Shown: in pieces, positions 7,960-59,583 of the stretch
How the letters are laid out: the number at the start of each line of letters is the position of its first letter
Position numbering within the stretch: position 1 is the stretch's first letter
NCBI RefSeq assembly: GCF_006546625.1
Contig: NZ_VIAR01000001.1
Span: 124,001 to 188,000, forward strand
DNA length: 64,000 nt
DNA from: Haloflavibacter putidus
Lineage (GTDB): Bacteria > Bacteroidota > Bacteroidia > Flavobacteriales > Flavobacteriaceae
Direction: 5' to 3'
Made by a program: the position numbers and the translations under genes
Notes under the pieces: model-generated
The model's database searches: none
Told to the model about the DNA's origin: nothing
The model's input: the letters and a program-made list of their open reading frames with translations, nothing else

Positions 7960-8640
7960 ATGTTTAGGGATATTTACAATTTCGTTTTCACGGAAACTTG
8001 CGCCGGTTGTCAAAAAATATTGGTCAAAAAAGAAAAACTGTTATGCTTATTTTGCAAGCACCAACTTCCTTTGACCAATTTTCATAAACATAACGAAAAT
8101 ACGTTAAAAAATATATTTTCGGGCAGGATTCCGGTTAATTACGCCACGGCTCTTTTTTATTTCCATAAAAAGGGCATTACCCAACAAATTTTACACAATT
8201 TAAAATACAAAGACACTCCAAAACTGAGTAATTATTTTGGTCTTTGGTATGCAGAAGAACTACAGCAAACGCAATGGATTAGAGAAATAGATGTCATAAT
8301 TCCCGTACCCTTGCATGCCAAACGTTTACGCGAAAGAGGCTATAACCAGACAGAAGGTTTTGCTAAAGAACTGAGTAAAAAATTGGCAAAACCCTGTTAT
8401 TTAGATGTTTTACAAAAAACTTCGGCAGCCAGAACACAGGTTTTTAAAAGCAAAATTGCGCGCTCAAAAATAGATTTGCACTTCTTTAACCTTAAAAATC
8501 CGCAAAAAATAAAAGACAAGCATGTTTTGTTGGTAGACGACGTTATTACCACCGGATCTACAATGCAAACCTGCGTAAAAACCCTATTACAGGCTTCTTC
8601 CGTAAAGGTAAGTCTTGCCAGCATGGCGTTTACGGCTTAA
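7960..8640 (+). CDS. ComF family phosphoribosyltransferase-like protein
   Basis: 226 residues from the ATG at 7960. An N-terminal four-cysteine zinc ribbon (CAGC and CLFC, residues of about 13-36) is followed by a phosphoribosyltransferase fold. The PRPP-binding loop is VLLVDDVITTGST near residue 190, and VPLHAKRLRERGYNQ is the other ComF/GntX signature. ComF proteins support DNA uptake in transformable bacteria; in others the role is unclear. The longer frame from 7858 runs into the divergent gene and is unlikely. A CTTTACGGAA-family word lies at 8598-8607 near the 3' end. Confidence 0.9.
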   Translation: MFRDIYNFVFTETCAGCQKILVKKEKLLCLFCKHQLPLTNFHKHNENTLKNIFSGRIPVNYATALFYFHKKGITQQILHNLKYKDTPKLSNYFGLWYAEELQQTQWIREIDVIIPVPLHAKRLRERGYNQTEGFAKELSKKLAKPCYLDVLQKTSAARTQVFKSKIARSKIDLHFFNLKNPQKIKDKHVLLVDDVITTGSTMQTCVKTLLQASSVKVSLASMAFTA

Positions 8641-8679
8641 GAAAAAAATTCGTTTCTTTGTTGCAAATTTACTTTAAAA

Positions 8680-10293
8680 ATGGCGAAGCGTTTTTTCTAT
8701 ATACTTGGCAGTGTTCTCTTTCTTGCGCATTTTACACATTGCGCTAAACGCGGAATGCCTACCGGCGGACCAAAAGACACCATTCCGCCTTCTGTAATAC
8801 GCACTTTTCCAGAAAATTACAGTACCAATTTTGACAAAGAGGAAATTACCATTACTTTTAACGAGTATATTAAATTACAAAATCCGCGGCAGCAAATTAT
8901 TTTCTCGCCTCCTATGGATCCTAAACCAAGTTTACGCCCAATGGGAGGAGCCAGCAAATCTTTAGAAATTCTTATTTTAGACACGCTTGCCAAAAACACC
9001 ACCTACAGTATAAATTTTGGAAAAAGCATTGCAGACAACAATGAGGAAAATCCATTTCCTTTTTACAAATATGTATTTTCTACCGGCAGTTATATAGATT
9101 CTTTGCAAGTTACAGGAAAAGTAAGCAACGTCTTACAAAAAGAAACAGATGCTTTTATTTCTGTAATGTTATATAAAGTAGACTCTACCTATACAGACTC
9201 TGTTATCTACGAAAAAGCACCTACTTATATCGCCTACACAAAAGACAGTACAAACGTTTTTTCTTTAGAAAATTTGAAAGAAGGAAAATATAAAATGTTG
9301 GCTGTAGCCGATAAAAACGAGAATTATAAATTTGATCCAAAAACAGAAAAAATTGGGTTTGTAGAAGGTTTTGTAAACTTACCTACAGATAGCACTTTTA
9401 GCATTTCTGTTTTTCAAGAAAACTTAGATTTAAAACTAATTAGACCAAAACAAGTATCTAAAAATCATCTTATTTTTGGTTACGAAGGTCTGGCAGACAG
9501 CGTAAAAATAAATTTACTTAATGCCCAAACAAGCAGTTATGACTATCAAATTATAAAAGATAATAAAACCGATACTTTGCATTATTGGTTTAAACCATTT
9601 TTTGAAACCGACAGTCTTGTTTTTGAAGTTTCGGGAAAAAATTATAAAGACACTTTGGTAACGCGCATTAAAGATATGTTACCGGACAGCTTAGATATAA
9701 AAGCTTCTGCTCGCGGAAGCATTAATATAGACGAAGATTTTGGGTTGAGCGCTAATATTCCTTTACGGAAAGTAGACACCTCTAAAATACAATTATTTGA
9801 TAAAGACTCTGTTTTGGTAGATTTTAAAACGCGTTATGAAGCTTTATACAACAATTATTTTATAGATTTTGAAAAAGAACCAGAACAAAAATATCGTCTC
9901 AATTTACTACCCGGTGCCTTAACAGATTTTTTCGAAAACCAAAACGACAGCTTGCAATATAGGTTGCAAACCCCAAATTTGGCAGATTTGGGTATTTTGA
10001 ATTTTACGGTAAGCAACTTGAATAATTATCCGGTTTTACTACAACTAACCAACGAAAAAGACGAAGTAGTAAAAGAAAAATACCACACCCAAGAAGATGG
10101 CAATAGTTTTGAGTTATCTTATATAAAACCCGGCACCTATTATGTACGTTTAATTTTTGATGAAAACAGCAATAAAAAATGGGATCCCGGTAATTTCCTA
10201 AAAAACCAACAACCCGAAAAAGTAATTCATTACCCAAAAGCCTTAGAAATACGACCAAATTGGGATGTGGTAGAAACCTTTATTTTAAGGTAA
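8680..10293 (+). CDS. Ig-like domain lipoprotein (SbsA-type)
   Basis: 537 residues. The N-terminus is a lipoprotein signal ending at a cysteine (FTHCAKRG). The next segment, GMPTGGPKDTIPPSVIRTFPENYSTNF, is typical of Bacteroidota lipoproteins carrying an N-terminal SbsA-like Ig domain (residues of about 35-135). Two segments resemble carboxypeptidase-regulatory-like beta-sandwiches (KEGKYKMLAVADKNENYKFDPKTEKIG and KPGTYYVRLIFDENSNKKWDPG), each with an Asp/Asn-rich calcium-type loop. It is probably exposed in the periplasm or at the outer membrane; no enzymatic motif is seen. Its 3' end overlaps the convergent nitrilase-family gene by 14 bases. Confidence 0.82.
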   Translation: MAKRFFYILGSVLFLAHFTHCAKRGMPTGGPKDTIPPSVIRTFPENYSTNFDKEEITITFNEYIKLQNPRQQIIFSPPMDPKPSLRPMGGASKSLEILILDTLAKNTTYSINFGKSIADNNEENPFPFYKYVFSTGSYIDSLQVTGKVSNVLQKETDAFISVMLYKVDSTYTDSVIYEKAPTYIAYTKDSTNVFSLENLKEGKYKMLAVADKNENYKFDPKTEKIGFVEGFVNLPTDSTFSISVFQENLDLKLIRPKQVSKNHLIFGYEGLADSVKINLLNAQTSSYDYQIIKDNKTDTLHYWFKPFFETDSLVFEVSGKNYKDTLVTRIKDMLPDSLDIKASARGSINIDEDFGLSANIPLRKVDTSKIQLFDKDSVLVDFKTRYEALYNNYFIDFEKEPEQKYRLNLLPGALTDFFENQNDSLQYRLQTPNLADLGILNFTVSNLNNYPVLLQLTNEKDEVVKEKYHTQEDGNSFELSYIKPGTYYVRLIFDENSNKKWDPGNFLKNQQPEKVIHYPKALEIRPNWDVVETFILR

Positions 10294-11053
10294 AAGCATC
10301 TTGGTCTTGCAAAAAAGCAAAATCTTTTCTGGTTTGCTGCAATTTTTCTGCATCTAGTTCTACCTGAATAATTTCGTCTGTTTCCAGATTTTCTGGTGAG
10401 AGCGGTTGGCCCAAAGCATCTAAAACAATAGAATGTCCATTGTACGCATTGTTATTTTCGTCATTGCCAATCCTGTTTACGCCGGCCACATAACTCATAT
10501 TTTCTATAGCTCGCGCTTTTAAAAGATGATCCCAGGCATAAACTCTTTTTTGCGGCCAGTTGGCATTATAAAATAAAAAATCATAGTCTTCTGTATTTCT
10601 AGCCCAAACCGGAAAACGTAAATCGTAGCAAATAAGCGGACAAATTTTCCAGCCTTTATAATTTACCAATAAACGCTTTTCTCCCGCACTATATTTATGG
10701 TGTTCGCCGGCAAAAGTAAATCTATGGCGTTTATCGTAAGTCTGGTAATGCGCATCCGGAAAAACAAAAAACATACGGTTATAGTAGTTTTCGCCTTCTT
10801 TAATAATTATGCTACCGGCCAGCGCCGTGTTTTTTTCCTGCGCGGTTTGTTGCATCCACGCTAAGGTTTTTCCGCTTTCGGTTTCTGCCAAAGGCTCCGG
10901 GTGCATAGAAAAACCGGTGCTAAACATTTCGGGCAAAATAATTAAATCTGTATTTTGAATAGAAGCAATTTTTTTACTGAAATGTTCTCTGTTGCGTTCT
11001 GCATCTTCCCAAAATAATTCGGTTTGAATTAAGGCGACTTTTAAATTTTCCAT
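10280..11053 (-). CDS. nitrilase-superfamily amidohydrolase, omega-amidase-like
   Basis: 257 residues, full length for a carbon-nitrogen hydrolase. The catalytic triad is visible: Glu in LIILPEMFSTGF (near residue 42), Lys in YDKRHRF (near residue 108) and Cys in ICPLICYDLRFPVWARN (near residue 142). The closest match I know is the YafV/omega-amidase branch, which hydrolyses alpha-ketoglutaramate and related omega-amides. Its tail overlaps the convergent lipoprotein gene by 14 bases, and it is divergent from ssb across a 185-base spacer with repeated TGTAAACA-like boxes. Confidence 0.85.
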   Translation of the reverse strand: MENLKVALIQTELFWEDAERNREHFSKKIASIQNTDLIILPEMFSTGFSMHPEPLAETESGKTLAWMQQTAQEKNTALAGSIIIKEGENYYNRMFFVFPDAHYQTYDKRHRFTFAGEHHKYSAGEKRLLVNYKGWKICPLICYDLRFPVWARNTEDYDFLFYNANWPQKRVYAWDHLLKARAIENMSYVAGVNRIGNDENNNAYNGHSIVLDALGQPLSPENLETDEIIQVELDAEKLQQTRKDFAFLQDQDAFTLK

Positions 11054-11072
11054 AAAGGAAATATACTGAAAT

Positions 11073-11155
11073 TGTAAACAGAAACAAAAAACGATTATCT
11101 AATTACAAACGTTTACAAACAATTGCAAACAGATATAAATGTAAACAACTGTTTA
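11073..11155. promoter_or_regulatory. cluster of TGTAAACA-like boxes between omega-amidase-like gene and ssb
   Basis: TGTAAACA at 11073 and 11140, TGCAAACA at 11124 and the inverted GTTTACA at 11111 lie within 83 bases. The last box is part of the palindrome TAAACA-AC-TGTTTA (11142-11155). The clustering in a divergent intergenic region suggests operator sites for an unknown regulator. The bases are AT-rich, so some repetition could be chance. Confidence 0.35.
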
Positions 11156-11238
11156 AGAACCAACTAAATTTTACCAAGGCTCGCATATTTGTCCTGTTGA
11201 ATTGACCAAACGATATTCAATTAATTAAATCTTTTATT

Positions 11239-11574
11239 ATGAACGCACTTAGAAACAAAGTACAGTTAATTGGCAGATTAGGACAAGAACCTGAAATTGT
11301 AAATTTTAAAGACGGCAACAAAATTGCCAAATTCTCTATGGCTACAGACGATAGTTATAAAGACAAAAACGGCCAAAAAGTAGAACGCGCCTACTGGCAT
11401 AATGTAATAGTTCGCGGTGGTTTGGTAAATGTGGTAGAAAACTACGTTAACAAAGGCCAAGAAATTGCTATAGAAGGCAAATTAACCAACCGTAGTTGGG
11501 AAGATAAAGCCGGTAATAAAAAATATATTACCGAGGTTTTGTGCAATGAATTATTGCTTTTAAGTAAGGCATAA
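11239..11574 (+). CDS. ssb: single-stranded DNA-binding protein, short form
   Basis: 111 residues forming one OB fold: NKVQLIGRLGQEPE at the start, KIAKFSMATDDSYKD and YWHNVIVRGGLVNVVENYVNKGQEI, all typical of bacterial SSB. It ends at LLLLSKA directly after the OB fold. The Gly/Pro-rich linker and the acidic C-terminal tip (usually ending DDIPF) that recruit repair and replication partners are missing. It may be a second, short SSB paralogue with the full-length one elsewhere in the genome, but this cannot be seen here. A hairpin terminator follows at 11675. Confidence 0.93.
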   Translation: MNALRNKVQLIGRLGQEPEIVNFKDGNKIAKFSMATDDSYKDKNGQKVERAYWHNVIVRGGLVNVVENYVNKGQEIAIEGKLTNRSWEDKAGNKKYITEVLCNELLLLSKA

Positions 11575-11674
11575 ATAAGACTTTTCTTAATGTGCTTTTA
11601 ACTACGGACGAAGTAAATGCAATAGCCAGTATTTTTATTGTTTCTTAAACGATAAATAACTGCTAATTTTATAT

Positions 11675-11704
11675 AAAAGCATTCTTTACGGAATGCTTTT
11701 TTTA
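11675..11704 (+). terminator. terminator containing a CTTTACGGAA word
   Basis: AAAAGCATTC pairs with GAATGCTTTT around the loop TTTACG, and the T run continues for seven bases. The 10-mer CTTTACGGAA (11684-11693) spans the loop and the inner ends of both arms. It lies 100 bases after the ssb stop. Confidence 0.75.
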
Positions 11705-11759
11705 TGTTTATAATTATAAATTTCTTATATTTAGAAAGTTACATTATAAATTTAACATT

Positions 11760-12221: not shown

Positions 12222-12223
12222 AC

Positions 12224-13143: not shown

Positions 13144-15216
13144 TTAGCTTATAATTTTTCCGCTGTTCACGGCTTTTTCATCCGGATTTACAAAAACCAA
13201 TTTTCCGTCTGCATTTTCTGTCATTAAAATCATGCCCTCGCTTTTGGTACCGCGCAGTTTTATAGGTTTTAAATTGGCAACAACGCTCACTTTTTTACCA
13301 ACAATTTCTTCGGCGGTAAAGTGCTCTGCAATTCCCGAAACAATAGTGCGTTTATCTATACCGGTATCAACAGTTAACACCATTAATTTTTTGGTTTTTG
13401 GCATTTTTTTGGCTTCCAAGATGGTTCCTACGCGTAGATCTAATTTGGTAAAATCGTCAAACTCTATCAATTCTTTTTGCGGGATCACCTCTTCTTCTTC
13501 CGTGGCATTTACTTTTTTGGTAGCTTCCAATTTATCTAACTGGGTTTGAATTTCGTTGTCTTCTACTTTGCTAAACAACAATTCGGTTTTGCCTATTTGG
13601 TGTCCGGCTTCTAGTAAAGCTTCCGCGGAAGCGATTGCCCTCCACTCCGAATTATTTTCGCTCTTATTAGAAGTGATGTTTAGCATTTTACTAAGCTTGG
13701 CAGCGGTAAACGGCAAAAATGGTTTGCTCAAAGTAGCCAAGGCAGCCGCTATTTGAAGTGCCACATACATTACAGTTTTTGTACGCTCTTCATCTGTTTT
13801 AATGGTTTTCCAAGGCTCTTCGTCTGCTAAATATTTATTTCCCAATCGTGCCAAATTCATCATTTCTGCCTGAGCTTCCCTAAAGCGATATTTTTCTATA
13901 GAGCTTGCAATTACGGCAGGATAGGCTTTTAACTCTTCTATGGTTTTTTTATCTATTTCTTTTAATTCCGCGAAAGCGGGAACTTTTCCGTCATAGTATT
14001 TATGCGTCAAAACTGCCACGCGGTTTATAAAATTACCAAAAATACCCACCAATTCGCTATTGTTGCGCTGCTGAAAATCTTTCCACGTAAAGTCGTTGTC
14101 TTTGGTTTCTGGTGCGTTTGCGGTTAAAACATAGCGCAAAACATCTTCTTTGCCGGGAAAATCTTCGAGATATTCATGCAACCAAACCGCCCAATTTCTG
14201 GAAGTAGAAAGTTTGTTACCTTCTAAATTTAAAAATTCGTTGGCCGGCACGTTATCCGGCAAAATATAGTCGCCGTGGGCTTTTAACATACACGGAAAAA
14301 TAATACAGTGAAAAACAATATTGTCTTTTCCTATAAAATGTACCAATTTGGTATCATCGTTTTTCCAATAAGGTTCCCAATCTTTATTTTGACGTTCTGC
14401 CCATTCTTTGGTGGCAGAAATATAGCCAATTGGCGCATCAAACCAAACGTAAAGAACCTTACCGTCGCCGCCTTCTACGGGAACGGGAATTCCCCAATCG
14501 AGATCGCGGGTTACGGCGCGCGGGCGCAAACCATCGTCTATCCAGGATTTACATTGGCCGTAAACGTTAGATTTCCAATCTTTTTTATGTTGGTCTAAAA
14601 TCCACTCTTTTAGCCAAGGTTCGTATTGGTCTAAAGGTAAAAACCAGTGTCGGGTTTCTTTTAAAGTTGGCACGTTGCCGGTTATGGCAGATTTTGGATT
14701 AATTAAATCTGTTGCGTTGTGCGATGTTCCGCATTTTTCACATTGATCGCCATAACTTTCTTCAAAACCACATTTTGGGCAAGTACCAACCACAAATCTA
14801 TCTGCCAGAAATTGTTTTGCTTCCTCGTCGTAGAGTTGCTGAGTTACTTCTTCAATAAATTTACCTTCTTCGTATAATTTTTTAAAAAAAGCAGAAGCGG
14901 TTTCGTGGTGTGTTTTTCCGGAAGTTCTGGAATAATTATCAAATTCAATTCCGAAATCTTGAAAAGATTTACGGATAATAGCATCGTATTTATCTACCAC
15001 ATCTTGCGGACTAACCCCTTCTTTTTTCGCTTTAAGCGTAATTGGCACACCGTGCTCGTCACTACCGCAAACAAATAAAACATCTTCGCCACGCATTTTT
15101 TGGTAGCGCGCATAAATATCTGCAGGAACGTAAACGCCCGCCAAATGACCAATATGAATAGGACCATTGGTATATGGCAAAGCGGCGGTAATGGTATATC
15201 TTTTTGGTGTGCTCAT
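13144..15216 (-). CDS. metG: methionine--tRNA ligase
   Basis: 690 residues. The class I signature HIGH is in [13 protein letters not shown] (near residue 20). A four-cysteine zinc knuckle lies near residues 145-165 (CPKCG and CEKCG). The KMSKS loop appears as KLSTS near residue 337. After a Lys/Glu-rich linker, residues of about 585-690 form a C-terminal EMAPII-like tRNA-binding domain ([24 protein letters not shown]). The enzyme charges initiator and elongator tRNA-Met in the cytoplasm. Length and order match the full MetG1 type with an appended tRNA-binding domain. Confidence 0.97.
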
Positions 15217-17645: not shown

Positions 17646-19568
17646 ATGGCACAAAATATTTACGCCAATATTCCCGAAGGCGATTTAAAAGATAAATGGA
17701 GTACTTATAAAAACAAGGCAAAACTGGTAAGTCCCAACAATCGTAAAAAGCTAGAAATAATTGTTGTAGGAACCGGCTTGGCGGGAGCTTCGGCCGCAGC
17801 TTCTCTTGCCGAAATGGGTTACAACATAAAAAGTTTCTGTTTTCAAGATTCGCCAAGACGCGCACATTCTGTTGCCGCGCAAGGTGGCGTTAATGCCATG
17901 AAAAACTATAAAAACGATGGCGACAGCGTTTACCGCATGTTTTATGACACCTTAAAAGGAGGCGATTTTAGAGCTAGAGAAGCAAATACCTATAGATTGG
18001 CAGAATGTTCTGCCAGTTTAATAGATCAAGCAGTGGCGCAAGGCGTTCCTTTTGGTAGAGAATACAGCGGTTATTTACGCAACCGTTCTTTTGGCGGCGT
18101 GCAGGTTTCCAGAACATTTTATGCGCGCGGACAAACGGGACAACAATTACTTTTGGGTTCTTACCAAGCTTTAATGCGGCAAAAAGAAGCCGGCAAAGTA
18201 CAGTTATTTGCCCGCCACGAAATGCTGGAATTAATTACCATAGATGGCAAAGCAAAAGGAATAATTGCCCGTAATTTAGACACGGGAAAATTAGAACCTC
18301 ACAGCGCACACGCCGTAGTTTTGGCTACCGGCGGTTTTGGAAAAATCTATTATCTTTCTACGCTGGCAATGGGTTGTAACGCTTCGGCAATTTGGCGCGC
18401 CCATAAAAAAGGAGCTTGGATGGCCAATCCCAGCTGGACGCAAATTCACCCAACAAGTTTGCCACAAAGCGGCACTTACCAATCTAAACTAACCTTAATG
18501 TCTGAATCTTTACGGAATGATGGCAGGATCTGGGTACCAAAAGATAAAAACGAAACCAGAAAACCAAACGAAATCCCGGAAGAAGAACGCGATTACTATT
18601 TGGAGCGTAAATATCCAGCTTTCGGAAATTTGGCACCTAGAGATATTGCTTCGCGTTCTGCCAAAGAACAAATTGATGCCGGAAAAGGCGTTGGCCCCTT
18701 AAAAAATGCCGTTTATTTAGATTTTAAACACGCGTTAAAAGAATATGGTAAAGAAATTATTAGCGAGCGTTATGGTAACTTATTTAAAATGTACGAAAAA
18801 ATTACAGGTGTAAATGCCTACAAAGAACCTATGAAAATTTCTCCCGCGGCTCATTTTTCTATGGGCGGACTTTGGGTAGATTATGATTTACAAACCAACA
18901 TTCCCGGTCTTTTTGCCATTGGCGAAGCAAATTTTTCAGATCATGGCGCCAATCGGTTGGGTGCAAATTCTTTATTGCAGGCTTGTGTAGATGGGTACTA
19001 CATTTTGCCTTATACTCTGCAAAATTATTTGGCAGACCAAATTCAAGTAGAAAAACCAGCTATTAATCATCCAGCCTTTACCACTTCCGTAAAGGAAATA
19101 AAAGCGCAGCTACAAGAATTTATTCAGAATAAAGGCAACAAAACCGCCGAAGAATACCACCGCGAATTAGGGAAAATACTCTACGACAAATGTGGTTTAT
19201 CGCGCTCCAAAAAAGGATTGGAAGAGGCAATTGCTTCTATAAAAACTTTACGGAAAGATTTTTCGGAAAATTTATTAGTTCCCGGCAAAGAAGAAGAAAT
19301 TAACAGCGAATTGGAAAAAGCAGGTCGGGTAAAAGATTATTTAGAACTGGCAGAACTTATGTGCTTAGACGCGTTAAACCGAGACGAGTCTTGCGGCGCA
19401 CATTTTAGGGAAGAATACCAAAGTGATGAAGGCGAGGCAGAACGCAACGATCAAGATTTCTGTTATTCTGCCGCTTGGGAATGGCACAAAACCGCCTCAA
19501 CACCCGTTTTACATAAAGAACCGCTGGTATTTGAATTTGTGAAACCTACCAAAAGGAACTATAAATAG
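17646..19568 (+). CDS. sdhA: succinate dehydrogenase/fumarate reductase flavoprotein subunit
   Basis: 640 residues. The FAD-binding dinucleotide motif is [18 protein letters not shown] near residue 40, the covalent flavin histidine lies in the [15 protein letters not shown] region, and the C-terminal [14 protein letters not shown] motif is intact. Substrate-binding residues appear in HPTSLP and in the RDIASR motif. With sdhB and sdhC it forms Complex II on the inner membrane, linking succinate oxidation to menaquinone. Three CTTTACGGAA-family words lie in this gene (18508, 19085, 19246). Confidence 0.97.
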
Positions 19569-22030: not shown

Positions 22031-25000
22031 ATGCAAAAACTTTACTTACTTCTAGTTTTCTCTTTCTTCTTTTCTTTTTCTAATGCTCAGGATGCGCCAT
22101 TTATTACTACTTGGGAGGTAGAGGCGAATGATTTGGAAATAACTATTCCTACTACAGGAAGCGGATATGATTATACAATTGACTTTGGCGATGGAACTGT
22201 CGAGAATAACGTATCTGGGAATATTTCTCATACTTATGATTCTCCGGGAACATATACCGTAAGTATTACTGGTGATTTTCCTAGGATATATTTTCTTGCA
22301 TCTCCATATCGTCATAGGATACAAAGTGTTGAGCAATGGGGGGACATAGAATGGGCATCAATGCAAGGAGCATTTTTATTTTGCAAAAATCTTATCCTTA
22401 ATGCCAATGATACTCCAGATTTAAGTCAAGTTACTGATATGAGTAAAATGTTTTATAATGCTGAGTCGTTGAATCAATCTCTAAATAATTGGGATGTTTC
22501 TAATGTTACTAATATGAATGGAATGTTTTACGGAACAACTACTTTCAATCAATCCCTAAATAATTGGGATGTTTCTAATGTCACTAATATGGGCGGGATG
22601 TTCAGTTATACGGATGCTTTTAACCAACCATTAAATGAATGGGATGTTTCAAGTGTTAATGATATGAGTAAAATGTTTTATAAAGCAGAGTCCTTTGATC
22701 AACCTCTTAATAATTGGAATGTTTCGAGTGTTACTGATATGAAGGAAATGTTTTTCCACGCAACTTCTTTTAATCAATCCTTAAGTGATTGGGACGTTTC
22801 TAATGTTATAAATATGAATTCTTTGTTTAGCGGGGCTGTAAAATTCAATAAACCTTTAAATAATTGGGATGTATCTAATGTTTCAGATATGGGTCGTATG
22901 TTCAGTTATACACGTAAATTTAATCAATCAATTAATAATTGGAATATTCTTAGCGTAACCGACATGAACAGTATGTTTAAAAATGCAAGTTCTTTCAACC
23001 AACCATTAAATAGTTGGGATGTTTCTAATGTGAGCTTTATGGCTAAAATGTTTTCTAACGCTATATTATTTAATCAGCCTTTAAGTAATTGGGATGTTTC
23101 CAATATTACTAATCTAGAAAGTATGTTCTTAGATGCTTGGAATTTTAATCAAGACTTATCGAATTGGAATTTTAATGGAAATGTTGATTTATCTAATTTT
23201 TTAAATAACTCTGGTTTAGATATAGCAAACTACGATTTACTTCTTTCAAGATTTCAAGATCTAAACCTTCAAAACGTAAATTTATCTGCTTGGAATTTGA
23301 TTTATTGTGATGCTACTACACACAACTATCTTACCGAAGATTTAGGTTGGTCTATAGATGGAGACGCTTTATTGGTAAATTGCAATACGTCAATACCTGA
23401 AGATGCCTTCGTAACACGATGGGAAGTATCAAATGCAGATTTAAGTATCACTATTCCTGCTAATTTTTCGCAAAATTATAATTACTCTATTGATTTTGGT
23501 GACGGTACCTTATTTAATAATCAAACCGGAAGTATTACCCACACTTATGGTGCGCCAGGAATATATGTTATAAGTATAACTGGACAATTCCCACATATTA
23601 TTTTAGGTGCAGAGCAAGGCTATAAACTTAGAAGTATTGAGCAATGGGGAAATATTGAATGGGAATCTATGAGAAAGACGTTTGAATCTTGCATTAGAAT
23701 GGTTATTAATGCAACTGATACACCAGATTTAAGTCAAGTAACAAACCTAAGTTTTATGTTTCACAATGCACGAATTTTTAATAGATCAATAAATAATTGG
23801 GATGTATCTAATATTACTAATATGAACGCTATGTTTAGTGGAGCTACTAGATTCAATAAGCCTTTAAATGAATGGAATGTTTCAAATGTTACCAATATGA
23901 AAGGAATGTTTGAGGAAGCTGAGTTTTTTGATCAGCCCTTAAATAATTGGGATGTTTCTAGTGTTACAGATATGAGTTTAATGTTTTACGGGGGGACATT
24001 TAATCCTAAATCATCATTTAATCAACCTATAGGCAATTGGAATGTTTCAAATGTAACAAATATGGCACAAATGTTTCACAATTCACCCTACTTCAATCAG
24101 CCATTAAACAACTGGGATGTTTCAAATGTTACAAACATGGAACGGATGTTTCAATTTTATGATTCAGATAATACTTCGGGAACAAATTCCTTCAATCAGC
24201 CACTTAATAATTGGAACACTAGTAATGTTACAGATATGGATTGGATGTTTCTTAACAATAAACTATTTAATCAACCATTAAATAATTGGCTTGTAGACAA
24301 TGTAACGAATATGAGAGGTATGTTTAGTAATACTACAAATTTCAACCAGAACCTATCCAATTGGAGTTTTAACAATGAGGTGACTCTTAATAGTATCGAT
24401 GATTATGGCTTTATAGAAAACAGCGGTTTAGATCCTTTCAACTATGATGCTTTACTGGCACGTTTTGAAGAATTGGGTATAGAAAATAAAACCCTAATCG
24501 CAGACAATCTAGAATATTGCAATGCGGGGGTTAGAAACGAATTGATAGACAATCTTGGTTGGACAATAAGCGGCGATAGCGTTTCGGAAGATTGTGCTTT
24601 CAATTATGTATCTGGAAATCTTCATTATGATGATAATAACGACGGTTGCGACAATAACGATATACCTGCAGAAGGTTTTCTTATAAATGCCAATGACGGC
24701 ACCTACGATTTTGGTACTTTTAGTTTGGCAGACGGAACTTACAATTTGAATTTACTTGAAGGTAATTATACCATTACATTAAACAACCTGCCTCAATATT
24801 ATACTGTAAACCCAGAAACCACAACATTTAATTTCACAGGTGCCGGCGAGCAGGAACAACTAGATTTCTGCCTTACCGCCAATCAAACAGTAGAAGATCT
24901 AAACATAACACTATTACCAACATCAGAAGCCCGGCCCGGTTTTGAAGCAGATTACCAATTGGTAGTAGAAAATATAGGAACGCAGAGTCTTGCTACGGCC

Positions 25001-25942
25001 AACATCAGCTTGATATTCGACGACACCAAACAAAGTTTTGTAAGCGCAACTCCGGCAGAAACTTCCAGTACAAACAATCAATTAAATTTTGAAGTAAATA
25101 ATTTACCGCCTTTTGGGCAGCAGGTAATAGATTTTACCATGCAAACCTTTCAGCCGCCAACAGTAAACGGAGACGACATTTTAAATTTTACCGCTACTAT
25201 TAGTCCAAATGCTAACGATTATACACCGGAAGATAATACATTTATTTACGAACAAACCGTGGTAAACTCTTTTGACCCTAACGACAAGCAGGTTTTACAA
25301 GGCGAACAAGTGCATATAGACAAAGCCGACCAATATTTAGATTATCTTATCCGTTTTCAAAATACCGGAACAGCAAGCGCCATCAACGTGCGTATTTTAG
25401 ATACTTTACATCCAGATTTAGATTACAGCACCATAAAACTCATAAGTGCCAGCGCAGATTATCGCGTAGAAATAACCAATGGCAACGAAGTCGAGTTTAT
25501 TTTTGATGATATTTATTTACCGCACGCGGACGAAAACGAACCCGAAAGTCACGGTTTTGTAGCTTATAAAATCAAACCAAAAGCAGGCGTTGCAATTGGC
25601 GATGTAATAACCGGCGATGCCAGTATTTTCTTCGATTTTAACGCGCCTATTATTACCAATACCGTTTCCACGGAATTTGTTGACGATCTCAACACAGATA
25701 GTTACAGCTTAGAAAACCTGGTACGCATTTACCCAAATCCGGTAACTGACTTGCTTAATATAGAAACCGCAGAGAATATCCAGTTAAAAAGTTTAAAATT
25801 ATATAATCTGCAAGGACAAGAATTGCTTCAATTTCCGCAAAGCACAAAAAGAATTAATTTATCGCAACTAAGCGCAGGAATGTATATTTTAAAAGTGCAA
25901 ACAAACCAAGGTTCTATTAATCAACAGATTCTTAAACAATAA
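22031..25942 (+). CDS. T9SS-secreted BspA-type repeat protein with duplicated module
   Basis: 1303 residues with a signal peptide. Two homologous modules follow each other. Each has a PKD-like domain (DYTIDFGDGTVENN near residue 47; NYSIDFGDGTLFNN near residue 485) and then a run of 25-residue BspA/DUF285 repeats (consensus FNQPLNNWDVSNVTNMxxMF): 10 units at about residues 126-400 and 8 units at about 563-785. Next come a CnaB-like region (NLHYDDNNDGCDNND), a DUF11-like beta domain (FDPNDKQVLQG) and a C-terminal type A sorting domain (VRIYPNPVTDLLNIE, ending LKVQTNQGSINQQIL). It is probably secreted and attached to the cell surface, where such repeats often mediate adhesion. The repeat half is more AT-rich than the C-terminal half. 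Confidence 0.92.
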   Translation: MQKLYLLLVFSFFFSFSNAQDAPFITTWEVEANDLEITIPTTGSGYDYTIDFGDGTVENNVSGNISHTYDSPGTYTVSITGDFPRIYFLASPYRHRIQSVEQWGDIEWASMQGAFLFCKNLILNANDTPDLSQVTDMSKMFYNAESLNQSLNNWDVSNVTNMNGMFYGTTTFNQSLNNWDVSNVTNMGGMFSYTDAFNQPLNEWDVSSVNDMSKMFYKAESFDQPLNNWNVSSVTDMKEMFFHATSFNQSLSDWDVSNVINMNSLFSGAVKFNKPLNNWDVSNVSDMGRMFSYTRKFNQSINNWNILSVTDMNSMFKNASSFNQPLNSWDVSNVSFMAKMFSNAILFNQPLSNWDVSNITNLESMFLDAWNFNQDLSNWNFNGNVDLSNFLNNSGLDIANYDLLLSRFQDLNLQNVNLSAWNLIYCDATTHNYLTEDLGWSIDGDALLVNCNTSIPEDAFVTRWEVSNADLSITIPANFSQNYNYSIDFGDGTLFNNQTGSITHTYGAPGIYVISITGQFPHIILGAEQGYKLRSIEQWGNIEWESMRKTFESCIRMVINATDTPDLSQVTNLSFMFHNARIFNRSINNWDVSNITNMNAMFSGATRFNKPLNEWNVSNVTNMKGMFEEAEFFDQPLNNWDVSSVTDMSLMFYGGTFNPKSSFNQPIGNWNVSNVTNMAQMFHNSPYFNQPLNNWDVSNVTNMERMFQFYDSDNTSGTNSFNQPLNNWNTSNVTDMDWMFLNNKLFNQPLNNWLVDNVTNMRGMFSNTTNFNQNLSNWSFNNEVTLNSIDDYGFIENSGLDPFNYDALLARFEELGIENKTLIADNLEYCNAGVRNELIDNLGWTISGDSVSEDCAFNYVSGNLHYDDNNDGCDNNDIPAEGFLINANDGTYDFGTFSLADGTYNLNLLEGNYTITLNNLPQYYTVNPETTTFNFTGAGEQEQLDFCLTANQTVEDLNITLLPTSEARPGFEADYQLVVENIGTQSLATANISLIFDDTKQSFVSATPAETSSTNNQLNFEVNNLPPFGQQVIDFTMQTFQPPTVNGDDILNFTATISPNANDYTPEDNTFIYEQTVVNSFDPNDKQVLQGEQVHIDKADQYLDYLIRFQNTGTASAINVRILDTLHPDLDYSTIKLISASADYRVEITNGNEVEFIFDDIYLPHADENEPESHGFVAYKIKPKAGVAIGDVITGDASIFFDFNAPIITNTVSTEFVDDLNTDSYSLENLVRIYPNPVTDLLNIETAENIQLKSLKLYNLQGQELLQFPQSTKRINLSQLSAGMYILKVQTNQGSINQQILKQ
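22408..23190 (+). repeat. BspA/DUF285 repeat block 1, about 10 units of 75 bases
   Basis: Each unit encodes a variant of NNWDVSNVTNM-xx-MF with a 25-residue period. Near-identical stretches such as AATTGGGATGTTTCTAATGT recur, so the array is liable to slippage or unequal recombination. Confidence 0.85.
23718..24375 (+). repeat. BspA/DUF285 repeat block 2, about 8 units
   Basis: Same consensus as block 1 and also introduced by an ATDTPDLSQVT segment. Two units are lengthened by insertions (FNPKSS and YDSDNTSGTN), so this copy has drifted more in length. Confidence 0.83.
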
Positions 25943-32337: not shown

Positions 32338-32975
32338 AGTTTTGGCGGTATAGGTATTACTTCGGTTTCTGTGCAAACGTAAATTTGGTCACTTTCTGAT
32401 TGTTGCATCAAATATTTCCCTGTAAAGGTACCAAAAGCGGGAAGAATTAATTGTTGTTTGCTTTTAAAAAAACACGGCAATTTTTCGTGCTGCTTTCCCA
32501 TTCCGCGTAAGCGAAACCCAGGATGTATATGACCGCAAATAGTAAAAAAACCTTCGCGTATTTCCGGGTGATGGGTAAGGAGAAAATTTTCGAGATAAAT
32601 TTCTTTTTCGACTTTAATTCCTAAATTTTCAAAATGTGTTGGCGCAATAATATCGTGGTTCCCCACTATTAACGTTAAATCTGCTTGCTGCTTTTGCACC
32701 CAAGTTTTAAAATAAGTAAACTCGGTATTAAAAGCGCTATGAAATAAATCTCCCAAAAAGTAGATTTTCTCCGGTTTAAACGTGTTTACCACTTTTTTAA
32801 GCTGCTGAAAATTCTTTAAAATCGCTTTTTGAGGAATCGCACTGCCGTGTTTTCTAAAATGCGCAATTTTTCCTAAATGTACATCTGCGATAAGCAATGT
32901 TTGCAAACGTTTGCAGTATAAAGCGCCACTAGGATGAAAAATAAAAGCTTCTTCTTGCAAATTTACCTCTAGCAT
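32334..32975 (-). CDS. pdeM: ligase-associated DNA damage response phosphoesterase/endonuclease PdeM
   Basis: 213 residues of the calcineurin-like metallophosphoesterase family. Metal-binding motifs in order are LLIADVHLGK, YFLGDLFHS, LIVGNHD and ICGHIHPG. PdeM is the family that occurs next to an ATP-dependent ligase, an Lhr-like helicase and an MBL exonuclease, which is also the context here. It is thought to be an accessory nuclease in DNA repair. The ATG at 32975 overlaps the stop of the PrcB-like gene (TGATG), and its own stop overlaps the TspO-like start. Confidence 0.9.
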   Translation of the reverse strand: MLEVNLQEEAFIFHPSGALYCKRLQTLLIADVHLGKIAHFRKHGSAIPQKAILKNFQQLKKVVNTFKPEKIYFLGDLFHSAFNTEFTYFKTWVQKQQADLTLIVGNHDIIAPTHFENLGIKVEKEIYLENFLLTHHPEIREGFFTICGHIHPGFRLRGMGKQHEKLPCFFKSKQQLILPAFGTFTGKYLMQQSESDQIYVCTETEVIPIPPKL

Positions 32976-46061: not shown

Positions 46062-46859
46062 ATGATTAAAAAGACCTGCTTCTTACTTTTATTTTTTAGC
46101 ATTTTTTGGAGTTGTAAAGAAGACCCAAAATCACAGCCGGAACCGCAACCACACACCGAAGAAAAAGAGAGTTTTAGTTTGATTCCTAAAAATTTATCGG
46201 TGCAGGATTTTGCAGCTTGTAAAGACAAAGCTTGTCCTGAAATTAGGATTACGTATGCAGAAGTAAAAGGCAATTATACCCACGCCGCAGAGCTGAACCA
46301 AGCTTTAAAAAGACATTTAGTTGGTATTGTAGATGCCAACTTACAGATGGATTTAAACAATGCTGACCTCAAAAAAGCTGTAAATTATTTTATTGAAGAT
46401 TATTTTAAGTTTAAAACTGAATTTGACGCCACCAATATTGGTTACGAATTAGAAATGGAACAAAGCCTTTTGGCAGAAACGCCCCAGCTTCTTTCTTTTA
46501 AAACTAAGTTTTATATTTTTACCGGCGGCGCACACGGATACGGAGCTACAAATTATTTGAATTTTGACCGGGAAAGCGGTAAAATTCTTACCAAAAAAGA
46601 TTTGTTTACAGATATAGATGCTTTTCAAGAGTATGCTGAGGAAAAATTCCGTGAAAAATACCATATTGCAAAGGGAGAATCTATTAACGCAACCGGGTTT
46701 CTATTTGAAGAAAATGAGTTTAAATTACCCCAAAATATTGGCTTTACGGAAGATGAAGTATTGCTGCTATATCATCCTTACGAAGCCGCCAGTTATGCCG
46801 AAGGTAGTTTGAAGTTGCGTTTCCGTAAAGATAAAATACAGCAATGGTTAGCCTATTAA
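46062..46859 (+). CDS. DUF3298/DUF4163 domain lipoprotein
   Basis: 265 residues with lipoprotein signal (FSIFWSCKEDPKS) and an acidic linker. The core matches the RsiV-like layout: a DUF4163-like N-terminal part (CPEIRITYAEVKG) followed by DUF3298 with FYIFTGGAHGYGATNYLNFD and GKILTKKDLFTD. In other bacteria this fold appears in anti-sigma factor RsiV, but here no transmembrane anchor or sigma gene is present, so the role is unknown. Two CTTTACGGAA-family words lie near the 3' end. The ArsC-like gene follows 17 bases later. Confidence 0.85.
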   Translation: MIKKTCFLLLFFSIFWSCKEDPKSQPEPQPHTEEKESFSLIPKNLSVQDFAACKDKACPEIRITYAEVKGNYTHAAELNQALKRHLVGIVDANLQMDLNNADLKKAVNYFIEDYFKFKTEFDATNIGYELEMEQSLLAETPQLLSFKTKFYIFTGGAHGYGATNYLNFDRESGKILTKKDLFTDIDAFQEYAEEKFREKYHIAKGESINATGFLFEENEFKLPQNIGFTEDEVLLLYHPYEAASYAEGSLKLRFRKDKIQQWLAY

Positions 46860-55363: not shown

Positions 55364-55365
55364 TT

Positions 55366-56004: not shown

Positions 56005-56176
56005 CCTGTTTTACTTTTTTCTTCTGAATGTAAAAGTGCATTTTTTTTAGAAGACACTTTTTAAATTTGCTGTTTTTTTTTCAAAAAAAAGTTTGGTTCT
56101 TTTTCTTCTTTTTTGAGCGTAAATAGCAACACACCAGGTTGAAAAGAAGAATATATTCCGTAAAGGAAAATTTTTA

Positions 56177-56935
56177 CTACAACTTTTTTAAAGCCTTCTC
56201 GGGCATCCAGCCTTGCTTTTTGTCTGCCAATTCTATTTTTGTATAGTTATTAAAGTTGTCTAGAACTTTTACTTTGGTGCCTTCGTGCAAGGTAAAAACT
56301 TCTTCTGCTTTACTGTTAGGCTCTGCTTTTACAGCTATTTCTTCCGTAAAGATAATGGCAAACTCTTTAGATTCCTGCCAGCCAAATTGTAAATAAGCAA
56401 AGCTAACACTCACAATTAAAAAAATTATGCTCAGCAAACCAGTAACAAAAAACAAGCGTTTTTTTACGGTAGAAGTGGCAAAATAATACAGCAAAGCAGA
56501 TGCAGCAAACAACACCGAAAACACAATGCTTAGCCACGCCCAACTGTCATAATCAAAAAAAGAAATTACATTTTTAAAGCTTTTGGATATTCCTGTTTGC
56601 GGCGCTTTTTCTATGGCGTCTAAGGTCATATTTTGCGCAAAAGACAAGTTGTTTTTTACATCTTCGTCGTTTGGCGAAAGCTGCAAAGCTTTTTCGTAGT
56701 TATAAATACTGGGCGCAATATGGTTCAATTTATAGTGCGCGTTGGCCAAATTATAATAAACCGCCGTAGATACTTGGTCGTTTTCTATAATTTGCTCGTA
56801 CTTTTTTATGGCTTGCTCAAATTTACCGTCGGCGTATAATTGGGTGGCTTCTTCAAACAGTTTTTCGCCGTTTTGCGCGGTAACCGGCAAACTTGCAATC
56901 AGCAATAAAAGCAGGAAATAAAATATCTTTTTCAT
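56177..56935 (-). CDS. batE: BatE, tetratricopeptide and SH3-like membrane protein
   Basis: 252 residues with a signal peptide. TPR-like helices at about residues 25-95 (LYADGKFEQAIKKYEQII, AVYYNLANAHYKLN), two transmembrane helices at about 130-180, and a bacterial SH3-like domain at the C-terminus (VKAEPNSKAEEVFTLHEGTKVKVLDNF). It is the last gene of the Bat operon, 2 bases after batD. Its function is unknown. Confidence 0.87.
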   Translation of the reverse strand: MKKIFYFLLLLLIASLPVTAQNGEKLFEEATQLYADGKFEQAIKKYEQIIENDQVSTAVYYNLANAHYKLNHIAPSIYNYEKALQLSPNDEDVKNNLSFAQNMTLDAIEKAPQTGISKSFKNVISFFDYDSWAWLSIVFSVLFAASALLYYFATSTVKKRLFFVTGLLSIIFLIVSVSFAYLQFGWQESKEFAIIFTEEIAVKAEPNSKAEEVFTLHEGTKVKVLDNFNNYTKIELADKKQGWMPEKALKKL

Positions 56936-56937
56936 CT

Positions 56938-58701
56938 TTAAAGTTGTTTATCTAATTCTGCCAATACGTTTACTGCTTTATCATAATCTTGTTGCATAGC
57001 GGTAGAAGATGCGGCGGCATATCTTGCCAGCTCGCAACTTTGCAGCAAGCTTATAAATTGTTCTATATTCTCTTGGGCCACATTTTTTTCTTTTAATATA
57101 GTAGCAATGCGGTCTTTGCTCATTTCTGCGGTTTGCAAATGCAATTTGGCGCGTAAATAATTATGCAAGGCTTTTTCTAAAGCTACATAAAAAGCATTTT
57201 TATCGCCCAAAGCATTTTTGGCTTTAGACAAGTATTTTTTAGCCAATTTATTGGCTCTTTTTATCCGTTTGCCTTCTACATCGCCGGCTTTTTCCCGTTG
57301 TTTGTTTCCCTTAAAAACAACTATAGGAATTAACAAGAGCGGTAGCGTTAAACCCGTCCAATATAAGGTGCTTTTAAAGAATTTATGTTTGCCCGCGGGT
57401 TTTAAATTAGGTTCTAATTTAATATATCTAAACTGCTCTGCCTTTGCCACAACGGGTTGTTTGGCAGAAGAAGTTGTTGTAATTACCTGATTGCCGGCAG
57501 AACCGGGCGCAGCTTCTACTTCTAGTAAAATTTCTTGCGAAGAAAGGGTTTTATAGGTTTTGGCATTCGGGTCAAAATAGGAAAAACTTAAACCGCTAAT
57601 TGGATATTTTCCTTTGCTTTGCGGAATAATAGTATACGTATCTAAAGTACTGCCCCGCATACCACCCAAATTGGTAGAAACTTTTTCTATATGCTCCGGC
57701 TCATAAACCTCTAAAGAAGCCGGGGTTTCTAATTTTGGCAAACTAAAGAGTTTTAAATTTCCGTTTCCAGAAACTTTCACCTCGGCTTGTAAAGATTCTG
57801 ATGCTTTTAAATTAGTTTTATTTACGTTTACTTCAAAATTAAAATCGCCTACCGCGCCGGTAAAATTGGCCGGTTTTCCTTGGGTAGGTAATTCTTTTAC
57901 GTTTATCGTGCGATTATTGGCCGCGATGGTTTTATCTACGGTTTCGTATAATCTTCTACCAAAAATATCGCGTCTGTCCGTTGGCACATCTACGGCCACA
58001 GAAAGCGTTAAAGGTTCTACGGTTAACTCGCCGGTTTTTTGTGGATAAAGCACCGTTTTCCGTAAAGTTACATACCGGTAAGGTTCTCCTTTATACGTAC
58101 CGTTTTTTACATTGAGTTGTTGAATATCTATATTCTGACTCCAAAAATTGGTGAATTTAGGATTATCAATTGGTCGCCAGTTGGTGACATTTATACGCGG
58201 ACTAACATACAGCTTATATTGCACGGTTATACCCTCGTTTAAATACGGATTGGTGTTAGAAACCTCTGCCACCAAATGTATATTTTCTGCAGCGGTTAAT
58301 GCCGCATTGTTGCCGTCTGTTGGTTTATCTACGGCGGCTACAACCTCAACTTTTAGCGGTGTGGTTTTATATACTTCGCCGTCTACGGTAATTTCTGCTT
58401 GTCCAATTTGAAATGTTCCCCTGCTGTAAGGTTTTAAAAAATAAGAATATTTTTTCTGATAGGTTTTCTGGCCGTTCATGTAGCTATAGCTAATTGATTG
58501 ATTTGGACCACCAACTACCTGAAAATTTTTAAACTGGGGGGGTTTAAAATTATCGCCATCTTCATTCATTGTAAAATCGATGCGTAAACGCTCGTTTATA
58601 CCTAACTTTTTACGGCTTGCTTCTGCTTCAAATTTTACTTGCGAAAAGCCTAAAGCCCCAATCAAAAAAAACATGCATGTTATTAATAACTTTCGTTTCA
58701 T
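56938..58701 (-). CDS. batD: BatD (oxygen tolerance protein)
   Basis: 587 residues. Signal peptide, then repeated Ig-like beta domains (about residues 20-430), one transmembrane helix near residue 440, and a cytoplasmic helical tail rich in Lys. BatD-type proteins are thought to be periplasmic parts of the Bat complex that aids aerotolerance. A copy of the CTTTACGGAA word is at 58058. It directly adjoins batC with no intervening base. Confidence 0.9.
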   Translation of the reverse strand: MKRKLLITCMFFLIGALGFSQVKFEAEASRKKLGINERLRIDFTMNEDGDNFKPPQFKNFQVVGGPNQSISYSYMNGQKTYQKKYSYFLKPYSRGTFQIGQAEITVDGEVYKTTPLKVEVVAAVDKPTDGNNAALTAAENIHLVAEVSNTNPYLNEGITVQYKLYVSPRINVTNWRPIDNPKFTNFWSQNIDIQQLNVKNGTYKGEPYRYVTLRKTVLYPQKTGELTVEPLTLSVAVDVPTDRRDIFGRRLYETVDKTIAANNRTINVKELPTQGKPANFTGAVGDFNFEVNVNKTNLKASESLQAEVKVSGNGNLKLFSLPKLETPASLEVYEPEHIEKVSTNLGGMRGSTLDTYTIIPQSKGKYPISGLSFSYFDPNAKTYKTLSSQEILLEVEAAPGSAGNQVITTTSSAKQPVVAKAEQFRYIKLEPNLKPAGKHKFFKSTLYWTGLTLPLLLIPIVVFKGNKQREKAGDVEGKRIKRANKLAKKYLSKAKNALGDKNAFYVALEKALHNYLRAKLHLQTAEMSKDRIATILKEKNVAQENIEQFISLLQSCELARYAAASSTAMQQDYDKAVNVLAELDKQL

Positions 58702-59583
58702 CTACCAATCTTTTTCTACGTTAGATCTTTGACCTTTTGCCTTTTTAGCATTTATTTTATCTTGAATTTTTTTCTCTTGATTTTCCATCGCTTCCAACAA
58801 ATTTTTTATTTGTTGTTTAGATAACTCGCCTTTTCTGGGTTGTGGTTGCTGGTCTGCTTTGTTTTTACCATCTTTTTCCTGTTCTGGCTGTTGTTCTTTT
58901 TCATCTTTTTTATCGCCTTGCTTGTCTTTATCTTTTTTGTCTTTTTGATTTTCTTTATCGCTAGGCTTTTCGTTTTTATCTTTATTCTCGCCGTCGCCAG
59001 ATTTGTCTTTTTTATCTTGCTCTCCGTCTTTGTTTTGTTTGTTTTTATCTTGCTTGTCCTGCTGGTCTTTTTTATCTTTTTTGTCTTTGTCTTTTTGCTT
59101 CTGCTTCTCTTTTTCCAATTTTTCTTTAGCAACTGCCAAATTATAACGGGTTTGATCGTCTGAGGGTCTATTCCGTAAAGCATTTTTATAAGCTTCTACC
59201 GCTTTTTGATAATTTTTTTGCGCCATAAAAGCATTACCTTGATTATGAAAAGCTTTGTGTTTTAAAGCTTTTTCTTTTGCTACCGTAGCCGATTCTTGCA
59301 AACGCTCTGAAGATTCTTCTGCTATATTATTTTTATAGTAAAGATTCCCCAAATTATAATTTGCATCTGCCAAATTTGGATCTTTGGCAATTGCCTCGCG
59401 GTATTTTGCTTCGGCCAGGGCAAAATTATCATTAGCCAGAGCTTCTTCGGCCTCAGCCATAAAAAGCTTAGCTTCTTTGGTAGCTTTTTTCTCTTTTTCT
59501 TGCGCAGAAAGTGTTCCGAAAAAACTTAGAAAAAACAAGCCCAAAAATGCTATTTTAAAATATGTATTTTTATTTACTCTCAT
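58702..59583 (-). CDS. batC: BatC, TPR protein with Lys/Asp-rich tail
   Basis: 293 residues with a signal peptide, TPR repeats at about residues 40-150 (NDNFALAEAKYREAIAKDPN, NYQKAVEAYKNALRNRPSDDQ) and a low-complexity Lys/Asp/Gln/Glu-rich tail (about 155-265). The tail resembles a charged linker. A coding overlap of 14 bases with batB (59570-59583) suggests coupled translation. Long ORFs in other frames through the tail are artefacts of the repeated codons. Confidence 0.87.
   Translation of the reverse strand: MRVNKNTYFKIAFLGLFFLSFFGTLSAQEKEKKATKEAKLFMAEAEEALANDNFALAEAKYREAIAKDPNLADANYNLGNLYYKNNIAEESSERLQESATVAKEKALKHKAFHNQGNAFMAQKNYQKAVEAYKNALRNRPSDDQTRYNLAVAKEKLEKEKQKQKDKDKKDKKDQQDKQDKNKQNKDGEQDKKDKSGDGENKDKNEKPSDKENQKDKKDKDKQGDKKDEKEQQPEQEKDGKNKADQQPQPRKGELSKQQIKNLLEAMENQEKKIQDKINAKKAKGQRSNVEKDW

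Follow-up and report, generated by a model that had tools for sequence, protein, structure and literature searches.

The stretch analyzed here (the window) comprises 64,000 bases of Haloflavibacter putidus, positions 124,001 to 188,000 of contig 11 in a 2.92-Mb genome of 53 contigs (G000) that groups with Mesonia in the Flavobacteriaceae. A 1135-residue protein encoded in the window has a 92% match in an uncultured Mesonia, compared with 65 to 66% in M. oceanica and M. profundi and 67% in a strain labeled Salegentibacter sp. R32. It carries a dispersed 10-bp word, CTTTACGGAA, lying both inside and outside called genes, and four copies of a second word, TTCCGCGNAAGCG (Table 1). An exact search returned 21 copies of CTTTACGGAA, 9 forward and 12 reverse, against an expectation of 0.24 and a maximum of 2 in 100 dinucleotide shuffles; an order-3 Markov model predicts 0.40 and ranks this word as the 10-mer of greatest excess in the window. 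A sequence-only reading made before our analysis had listed 20 copies, all with correct coordinates, and had overlooked the one at 2376. Sixteen of the 21 sites are genic according to our gene caller, a crude one under which some genes may have gone uncalled, and these occur as TTT-ACG-GAA (seven), TTA-CGG (five), and CTT-TAC-GGA (two) in the sense direction and as TCC-GTA-AAG and TTC-CGT-AAA (one each) in antisense. The codon phasings claimed earlier are borne out at the sites with a called gene, but 8598, which had been taken as genic, was not accepted by the caller and joins the four copies already placed outside genes.

Table 1. Positions of the two words in the 64,000-base window, with their coding context and their state in relatives.
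Element	Position	Strand	Context	Relatives
CTTTACGGAA	2376..2385	+	sense CTT-TAC-GGA, gene 1770-5177	conserved in L001; CTTTACGGCA in M. profundi L004
CTTTACGGAA	8598..8607	-	no called gene; inside ORF 7858-8640, rejected by caller	conserved in L001
CTTTACGGAA	9761..9770	+	sense TTA-CGG	conserved in L001
CTTTACGGAA	11684..11693	+	no called gene; within terminator-like hairpin	conserved in L001
CTTTACGGAA	18508..18517	+	sense TTA-CGG	
CTTTACGGAA	19085..19094	-	antisense TCC-GTA-AAG, gene 17646-19568	
CTTTACGGAA	19246..19255	+	sense TTA-CGG	
CTTTACGGAA	33801..33810	-	sense TTT-ACG-GAA	
CTTTACGGAA	36975..36984	-	sense TTT-ACG-GAA	
CTTTACGGAA	38833..38842	+	no called gene	
CTTTACGGAA	42384..42393	+	no called gene	
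CTTTACGGAA	42653..42662	-	sense CTT-TAC-GGA	
CTTTACGGAA	46742..46751	+	sense TTT-ACG-GAA	
CTTTACGGAA	46821..46830	-	antisense TTC-CGT-AAA	
CTTTACGGAA	52161..52170	-	sense TTT-ACG-GAA	
CTTTACGGAA	52952..52961	-	sense TTT-ACG-GAA	
CTTTACGGAA	55237..55246	+	sense TTT-ACG-GAA	
CTTTACGGAA	56156..56165	-	no called gene	
CTTTACGGAA	56342..56351	-	sense TTT-ACG-GAA	
CTTTACGGAA	58058..58067	-	sense TTA-CGG	
CTTTACGGAA	59171..59180	-	sense TTA-CGG	
TTCCGCGNAAGCG	13621-13633	+		
TTCCGCGNAAGCG	13966-13978	+		
TTCCGCGNAAGCG	32501-32513	+		
TTCCGCGNAAGCG	61693-61705	+		

The excess extends over the whole genome, in which CTTTACGGAA occurs 746 times (376 forward and 370 reverse; one copy per 3.9 kb) against 8 copies, 4 on each strand, of the reversed pattern used as a control, and the claim of over-representation thus survives the genome-wide count on which it had been staked. 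The strand balance bears on one of four roles that had been proposed, a Chi-like recombination hotspot of a RecBCD- or AddAB-type enzyme. Like Chi, CTTTACGGAA is short and over-represented, in coding and noncoding DNA alike; Chi sites are strand-oriented, however, and in seven contig pieces of up to 120 kb CTTTACGGAA shows no marked bias (10/15, 7/8, 12/9, 5/11, 2/2, 19/19, and 9/12 on the two strands). Because each of these balanced pieces should lie mostly on one replichore, the orientation bias of Chi is lacking here, origin and terminus not having been located. With the word also altered, or no commoner than background, in other members of the genus, as described below, a Chi-like role appears very unlikely. 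Spacing between copies is exponential (Kolmogorov-Smirnov P of 0.63 over 131 intervals, with two gaps of ∼36 kb left out). Judged from the starts of the encoded proteins, the gap on C4 is a cluster encoding EF-G, ribosomal protein, SecY, RpoA, and enolase, and that on C2 holds chiefly short unknown genes at 33.7% GC; the notion that word-free gaps are islands was rejected for the former.

Gene context was assessed in 582 kb of G000 that contains 140 sites and of which called genes occupy 82%. Sixty-six sites are sense, 25 antisense, and 49 outside called genes, so that 35% of sites lie in the 18% of DNA that is uncalled, about twice the expectation, a figure that uncalled genes inflate. From codon usage, each of the five stop-free frames should contain 0.08 to 0.55 sites, whereas the observed counts are 15, 17, 34, 7, and 18; none of the 91 genic sites uses the sixth frame, which contains an in-frame TAA. 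A preferred orientation of uptake words in reading frames has been reported (PMC2346458, in excerpt) and is seen for CTTTACGGAA too, but here the codon model accounts for it, the ratio of 66:25 being close to the predicted 0.92:0.26. The copies have no long common flank. Weakly AT-rich flanks were found at −6 to −2 and +10 to +15, with lower values at +16 to +20 and a rise thereafter, in samples from G000 (140 sites) and its relative G014 (119 sites) that share most sites and are not independent. Eight of the 49 sites outside genes, including 11684, lie in hairpins below −8 kcal/mol by raw count. We also note close converging inverted pairs, 28 to 79 bases apart, at 46742/46821 in the window, 53067/53106 on contig 1, and 27852/27880 and 65071/65101 on contig 11, which are reminiscent of paired uptake sequences.

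Conservation was assessed in an alignment of G000 with G014, the one close genome pair on which these figures rest (238,812 columns in 44 blocks of at least 500 columns and at least 78% identity; 89.0% identity overall). In the aligned blocks, 71 of the 79 CTTTACGGAA words of G000 are identical in G014, which itself has 81, and retention falls along a gradient from 90% for the exact word through other CTTNNCGGAA words (30/40) and words with one mismatch outside the central pair (33/51) to those with two mismatches (149/369) and reversed CTTNNCGGAA (0/7); the controls were retained at 36% (10-mers of the same composition) and 38% (all 10-mers). Per-column identity over 73 sites is 0.96 to 1.00 at the ten word positions and mostly 0.70 to 0.90 in the flanks, where a few columns reach 0.96 and 1.00. 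Eighteen sites are found in one genome and missing from the other, and 17 of these differ without a gap. In more distant species, window site 2376 alone aligns well, reading CTTTACGGCA in M. profundi and CTCTACGGAG in M. oceanica; sites 8598 and 9761 align poorly with M. profundi, 8598 with gaps.

Selection or drive acting on the DNA itself maintains the word, which varies between relatives by substitution. Since all five stop-free frames are used and conservation peaks at the ten bases, its sequence pattern almost certainly reflects selection on DNA and not on a protein motif, which is what the sequence-only reading had concluded from the phasing. The explanations that require no such selection or drive can be set aside as having next to no chance of being correct: a dispersed mobile repeat of the REP or MITE kind is contradicted by the lack of a long common flank and by substitution, not insertion, at variable sites, while chance composition and a motif at the codon or protein level are contradicted by the use of every stop-free frame, the Markov expectation in the window, and the reversed-pattern count genome-wide. 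Nothing but the excess itself speaks in their favor.

CTTTACGGAA is a genuine 10-bp word, spread over the genome and balanced between strands; its strong enrichment is confined to some members of a single genus. Four of the 16 Mesonia genomes compared are word-rich, with 804 exact copies in G014, 746 in G000, 263 in G008, and 255 in G002. Lower counts were found in G009, G011, and G015 (70, 70, and 69), G010 (27), G003 (18), and G006 (17), and the remaining six have 4 to 11, with reversed-pattern controls of 5 to 18 over the 16 genomes. Seven (G001, G004, G005, G006, G007, G012, and G013; 4 to 17 copies) are at or below their own control (8 to 18). In a set of 397 Flavobacteriaceae genomes from 237 genera, three of them Mesonia, the highest counts among the 394 others are 59, 56, and 46, with controls of 29, 16, and 21; the mild excess in G310 and G108 (both of genus g94), G128, G091, and G394 (31 to 59 versus controls of 12 to 29) may reflect composition or a weak related word.

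The word also changes within the genus. Samples of G002 have raised counts of CTTAACGGAA, CTTGACGGAA, and CTTAGCGGAA as well, and those of G008 of CTTAACGGAA and CTTAGCGGAA. Whole-genome counts of CTTNNCGGAA, with reversed controls in brackets, are 1261 (113) in G014, 1176 (107) in G000, 914 (74) in G002, 794 (117) in G008, 319 (92) in G010, and 205 (120) in G003; the other ten Mesonia have 0.7 to 1.4 times their own control, and CTTNNCGGAA reaches at most ∼2.4 times control outside the genus (249 genomes, two of them Mesonia). On the basis of these dialect words and counts, the core is a bipartite CTT-N2-CGGAA whose central TA is mostly fixed in one clade and loose in another. Related species thus share the word or its dialects, though the exact word is at background in those seven genomes. 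A search for alternative words, covering 60 to 148 kb per genome and taking in both gapped word pairs and exact 8- to 12-mers, returned no other dispersed word of like strength in G001, G003, G004, G005, G006, G009, G010, and G011; from G007, G012, G013, and G015, small pieces of 7 to 28 kb were sampled. High counts in G004 and G009 left the top of the list once duplicated 24-mers were masked, and CTAACGGAA in G001 (8 versus 0.8) and CTTCGGAA in G005 (16 versus 2.8) were set aside as weak. CTTTACGGAT in G011 (6 versus 0.4, small numbers) may be a dialect.

This distribution bears on two further roles. A site for a cytoplasmic DNA-organizing or segregation protein, such as a nucleoid protein, an SMC loader, or an occlusion factor, could yield a genome-wide, strand-balanced, partly bipartite word conserved as DNA. 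Conservation across a genus would be expected of such sites, however, whereas seven of 16 Mesonia are at or below control and others use a different dialect, and apart from the two gaps no regional clustering of CTTTACGGAA was seen in the sampled pieces; we regard this role as improbable. The self-mark of a modification or defense system, methylated or otherwise protected, would suit a fixed word with two central bases loose in some species, and species-specific turnover is common in such systems. Restriction recognition words nevertheless tend to be avoided and a two-base spacer misfits type I sites, while CTTTACGGAA is enriched 90-fold around just such a spacer, which leaves the self-mark quite improbable.

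Of the four candidate roles named by the sequence-only reading, an uptake sequence fits best, and we consider that CTTTACGGAA probably serves natural transformation as this Mesonia lineage's DNA uptake sequence. To be short, strand-balanced, preserved as DNA, variable by substitution, and different among species within a genus is the profile of such sequences. CTTTACGGAA is enriched far above expectation genome-wide, it occurs on both strands in coding and noncoding DNA without long common flanks, and in G000 and G014 it shows the point substitution and upkeep against drift that are characteristic of uptake sequences. At the cell surface, a receptor belonging to the transformation machinery of flavobacteria would recognize the word in extracellular double-stranded DNA and favor passage of word-bearing DNA across the outer membrane, after which ComEC, DprA, and RecA would import and recombine it. 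If tagged fragments were taken up and recombined more often, mutations toward the word would spread and mutations away from it would be repaired, and the outcome would be build-up by point mutation, conservation above background, and a new word whenever the receptor changed.

PMC12616744 gives the Neisseriaceae and Pasteurellaceae as the only families known for uptake words. The DNA uptake sequence (DUS) of the Neisseriaceae is a 10-bp word with hundreds to thousands of copies (943 to 5918 per genome) and dialects that differ at few positions (PMC3630211, in excerpt). CTTTACGGAA resembles this word, which is read by the minor pilin ComP, in its length, its hundreds of copies, and its dialects between related species, but it's a different word in another phylum, less dense than most DUS, and no T2SSE (type II/IV secretion ATPase) exceeded the cut-off in the word-rich Mesonia. 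The uptake signal sequence (USS) of the Pasteurellaceae has a point-mutational origin, drive-like accumulation, and the consensus aAAGTGCGGTnrwttttnnnnnnrwtttw (as quoted in PMC1939737). CTTTACGGAA is similar in that origin and accumulation and in combining a core with weak AT-rich flanks; unlike the USS, it has a different core and a weak flank signal and comes with no sign of a type IV pilus. Topic searches of the literature listed no paper on such a word in Bacteroidota, in line with the sequence-only reading, which knew of no description, and a search by the letters of CTTTACGGAA gave unrelated titles only, among the matches listed.

ComEC is encoded in all 16 Mesonia genomes, word-poor ones included, as is an open frame of 289 to 308 residues with two HHH matches. 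In G006 the ComEC frame is short, 474 or 535 residues depending on the frame used versus 669 to 684 elsewhere, and the gene may be broken or misassembled. T2SSE passed the cut-off in four of 16 genomes (G006, G007, G012, and G015; E values of 3e-118 to 2e-127) and did not do so in the drafts of the word-rich G000, G014, G002, and G008, pilins and secretins not having been searched. The type IV pilus of the two known uptake-word families is therefore not evident in the word-rich genomes, and since none of the four has a T2SSE over the cut-off, an ordinary type IV pilus or a ComP-type receptor on one is unlikely there.

A different kind of receptor is suggested by Riemerella. Transposon mutagenesis of R. 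anatipestifer identified ComEC, DprA, ComF, RecA, an HHH protein, and a DUF1343 protein as essential for transformation, along with an operon pair of RS04915, a predicted outer membrane protein, and RA0C_RS04920, which contains DUF5689 and DUF5017 (PMC8459023, in excerpt). Like R. anatipestifer and R. columbina, Mesonia has a DUF5689-DUF5017 protein with an upstream neighbor, ComEC, and an HHH protein. A preference for its own DNA is reported for R. columbina, and the excerpted k-mer table for Riemerella contains A/T-rich 10-mers whose function its authors left open (PMC7965970); unlike Mesonia, no word comparable to CTTTACGGAA is reported in those excerpts. A DUF5689 protein is encoded in all 16 Mesonia, word-poor ones included. 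Pfam assigned DUF5689 and DUF5017, the makeup of RA0C_RS04920, to the protein of G000, the sole one scanned; the other 15 align with it, those of G004 and G006 being longer. We read it as a putative lipoprotein because a cysteine, C22, after a signal-like start is invariant in all 16. Upstream of the gene, in the position of RS04915, all 16 genomes have an open frame of 442 to 452 residues that we infer to encode a beta barrel.

The DUF5689 domain was modeled with a pLDDT of 91.4 (80.3 for the whole protein). Foldseek matched the domain to 31 PDB entries at E values of at most 0.001, namely, HIN-200, Teb1, RPA, and telomere-end OB-fold proteins, some of which we take to be such where the PDB title is silent, and several HIN-200 matches are complexes with double-stranded DNA. 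The DUF5689 part is thus predicted from its model to resemble tandem OB-fold DNA-binding domains. A PDB sequence search with DUF5689 gave nothing below an E value of 0.19, and the top matches of the whole protein in Foldseek were carbohydrate-binding and gingipain cleaved-adhesin folds. Given DNA uptake, the match of domain makeup and gene order to the R. anatipestifer pair and the predicted OB-fold-like DUF5689 domain make the lipoprotein with its upstream neighbor the likeliest, if still tentative, candidate for the receptor, a lead and not proof.

Variation in this pair was compared with word content. Identity of the lipoprotein's DUF5689 domain to that of G000 is 90.7% in G014, 59.3% in G002, 60.6% in G008, and 59.7% in G001, compared with 30 to 38% in the other 11 genomes, and the neighbor shows the same split (95.5, 79.3, 77.7, and 76.4% versus 56 to 69%). 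Variation in the lipoprotein is much greater than in the three housekeeping proteins compared, which are 71 to 79% identical to those of G000 in all genomes but G014. ComEC identity is ungrouped (34.6 to 41.9% for all but G014), and a second DUF5689 protein, the one outer membrane control for allele grouping, has no such split (35 to 60% for all but G014; 14 genomes). Alignments of the lipoprotein and the neighbor reject the ComEC and three-protein species topologies (approximately unbiased [AU] test, P of at most 1.2e-5), and ComEC rejects theirs; ComEC also rejects the three-protein tree by the AU test and not by the Shimodaira-Hasegawa (SH) test. All four word-rich genomes, from two clades, carry the same receptor allele type, an association of 4/5 versus 0/11 (Fisher P of 0.0027, ignoring kinship). 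Receptor type was rejected as a full explanation of the word, since G001 has the allele without the word.

Several observations weigh against an uptake sequence or against this candidate receptor. We found no report of a competent Mesonia in our literature search, a brine microbiome study being the one paper to mention the genus together with natural transformation. G001 combines the receptor type of the word-rich genomes with a normal-length ComEC (678 residues) but has 5 copies of CTTTACGGAA versus 10 of the control, and G009, G011, and G015 have ∼70 copies, 4 to 5 times control, but a different receptor type. The word is less dense than in most Neisseriaceae, its spacing is random and not even, and a 36-kb cluster of conserved genes lacks any copy, for which coding constraint may be the explanation. 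Pfam assigned nothing in 433 residues of the G000 neighbor, and the Foldseek TM-scores by query are low (0.23 to 0.38 for the 31 matches and 0.22 to 0.40 for the best 50 listed). The lipoprotein and the neighbor reject each other's tree by the AU test (P of 0.0003 and 0.0002), though not by the SH test, and the five-genome allele group has a support of 97 in the lipoprotein tree and 61 in the neighbor tree. Finally, because the word-rich genomes form two clades only, the allele association represents two events at most.

The second word, TTCCGCGNAAGCG, which reads CGCTT-N-CGCGGAA the other way, has 94 matches in G000, 107 in G014, 191 in both G002 and G008, 41 to 53 in G009, G010, G011, and G015, 16 in G003, and 0 or 1 in the other seven Mesonia; sites are somewhat fewer than matches because palindromic copies count on both strands. 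Its count tracks that of CTTTACGGAA across the 16 genomes (Spearman coefficient of 0.93, uncorrected for kinship). In the wider family, 115 of 249 genomes, representing 107 of 235 genera, carry it; copy numbers outside Mesonia range from 1 to 94 (the latter in G098), and the controls number 0 to 2. At orthologous sites most differences are substitutions, and in two comparisons a gap lies in the word or next to it. Four of 17 sites in G000 lie outside genes and eight share one frame, so that the case against a protein contribution is weaker than for CTTTACGGAA. A literature search by its letters gave unrelated titles only. Samples of 200 kb from each of two TTCCGCGNAAGCG-rich family genomes, G098 and G167, yielded no strong word beyond repeats, the G098 sample being without TTCCGCGNAAGCG itself. 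It is conceivable, if rather doubtful, that the Flavobacteriaceae possess a pilus-independent uptake-word system in which a HIN-like tandem OB-fold lipoprotein with an outer membrane partner would read the bipartite word, mobile receptor alleles would carry the dialect, and TTCCGCGNAAGCG would serve the same process as an earlier or parallel word.

Two repetitive features of G000 were recorded in addition. A CRISPR-like array lies at about 114.8 to 117.5 kb of contig 1 (L052:14833-17506), with 40 repeats containing TCAATCGCACCTCATTGGA at a spacing of ∼67 bases. In the window, positions 22031-25942 encode a 1303-residue protein with many NWDVSNVTNM-like repeats, and seven copies of TGGGATGTTTC between 22490 and 24113, all within this gene, correspond to its repeated W-D-V-S codons.

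If CTTTACGGAA is indeed an uptake sequence, it would represent a third origin of self-recognizing DNA uptake, this time in a different phylum and, it seems, without type IV pili, and would indicate that self-recognizing uptake evolves repeatedly with different machines. The drive model of uptake words would become testable in a genus in which the word is present, changed, or absent, and the unexplained outer membrane step of flavobacterial transformation would gain a testable receptor. Such a word could also help the laboratory transformation of marine Bacteroidota.

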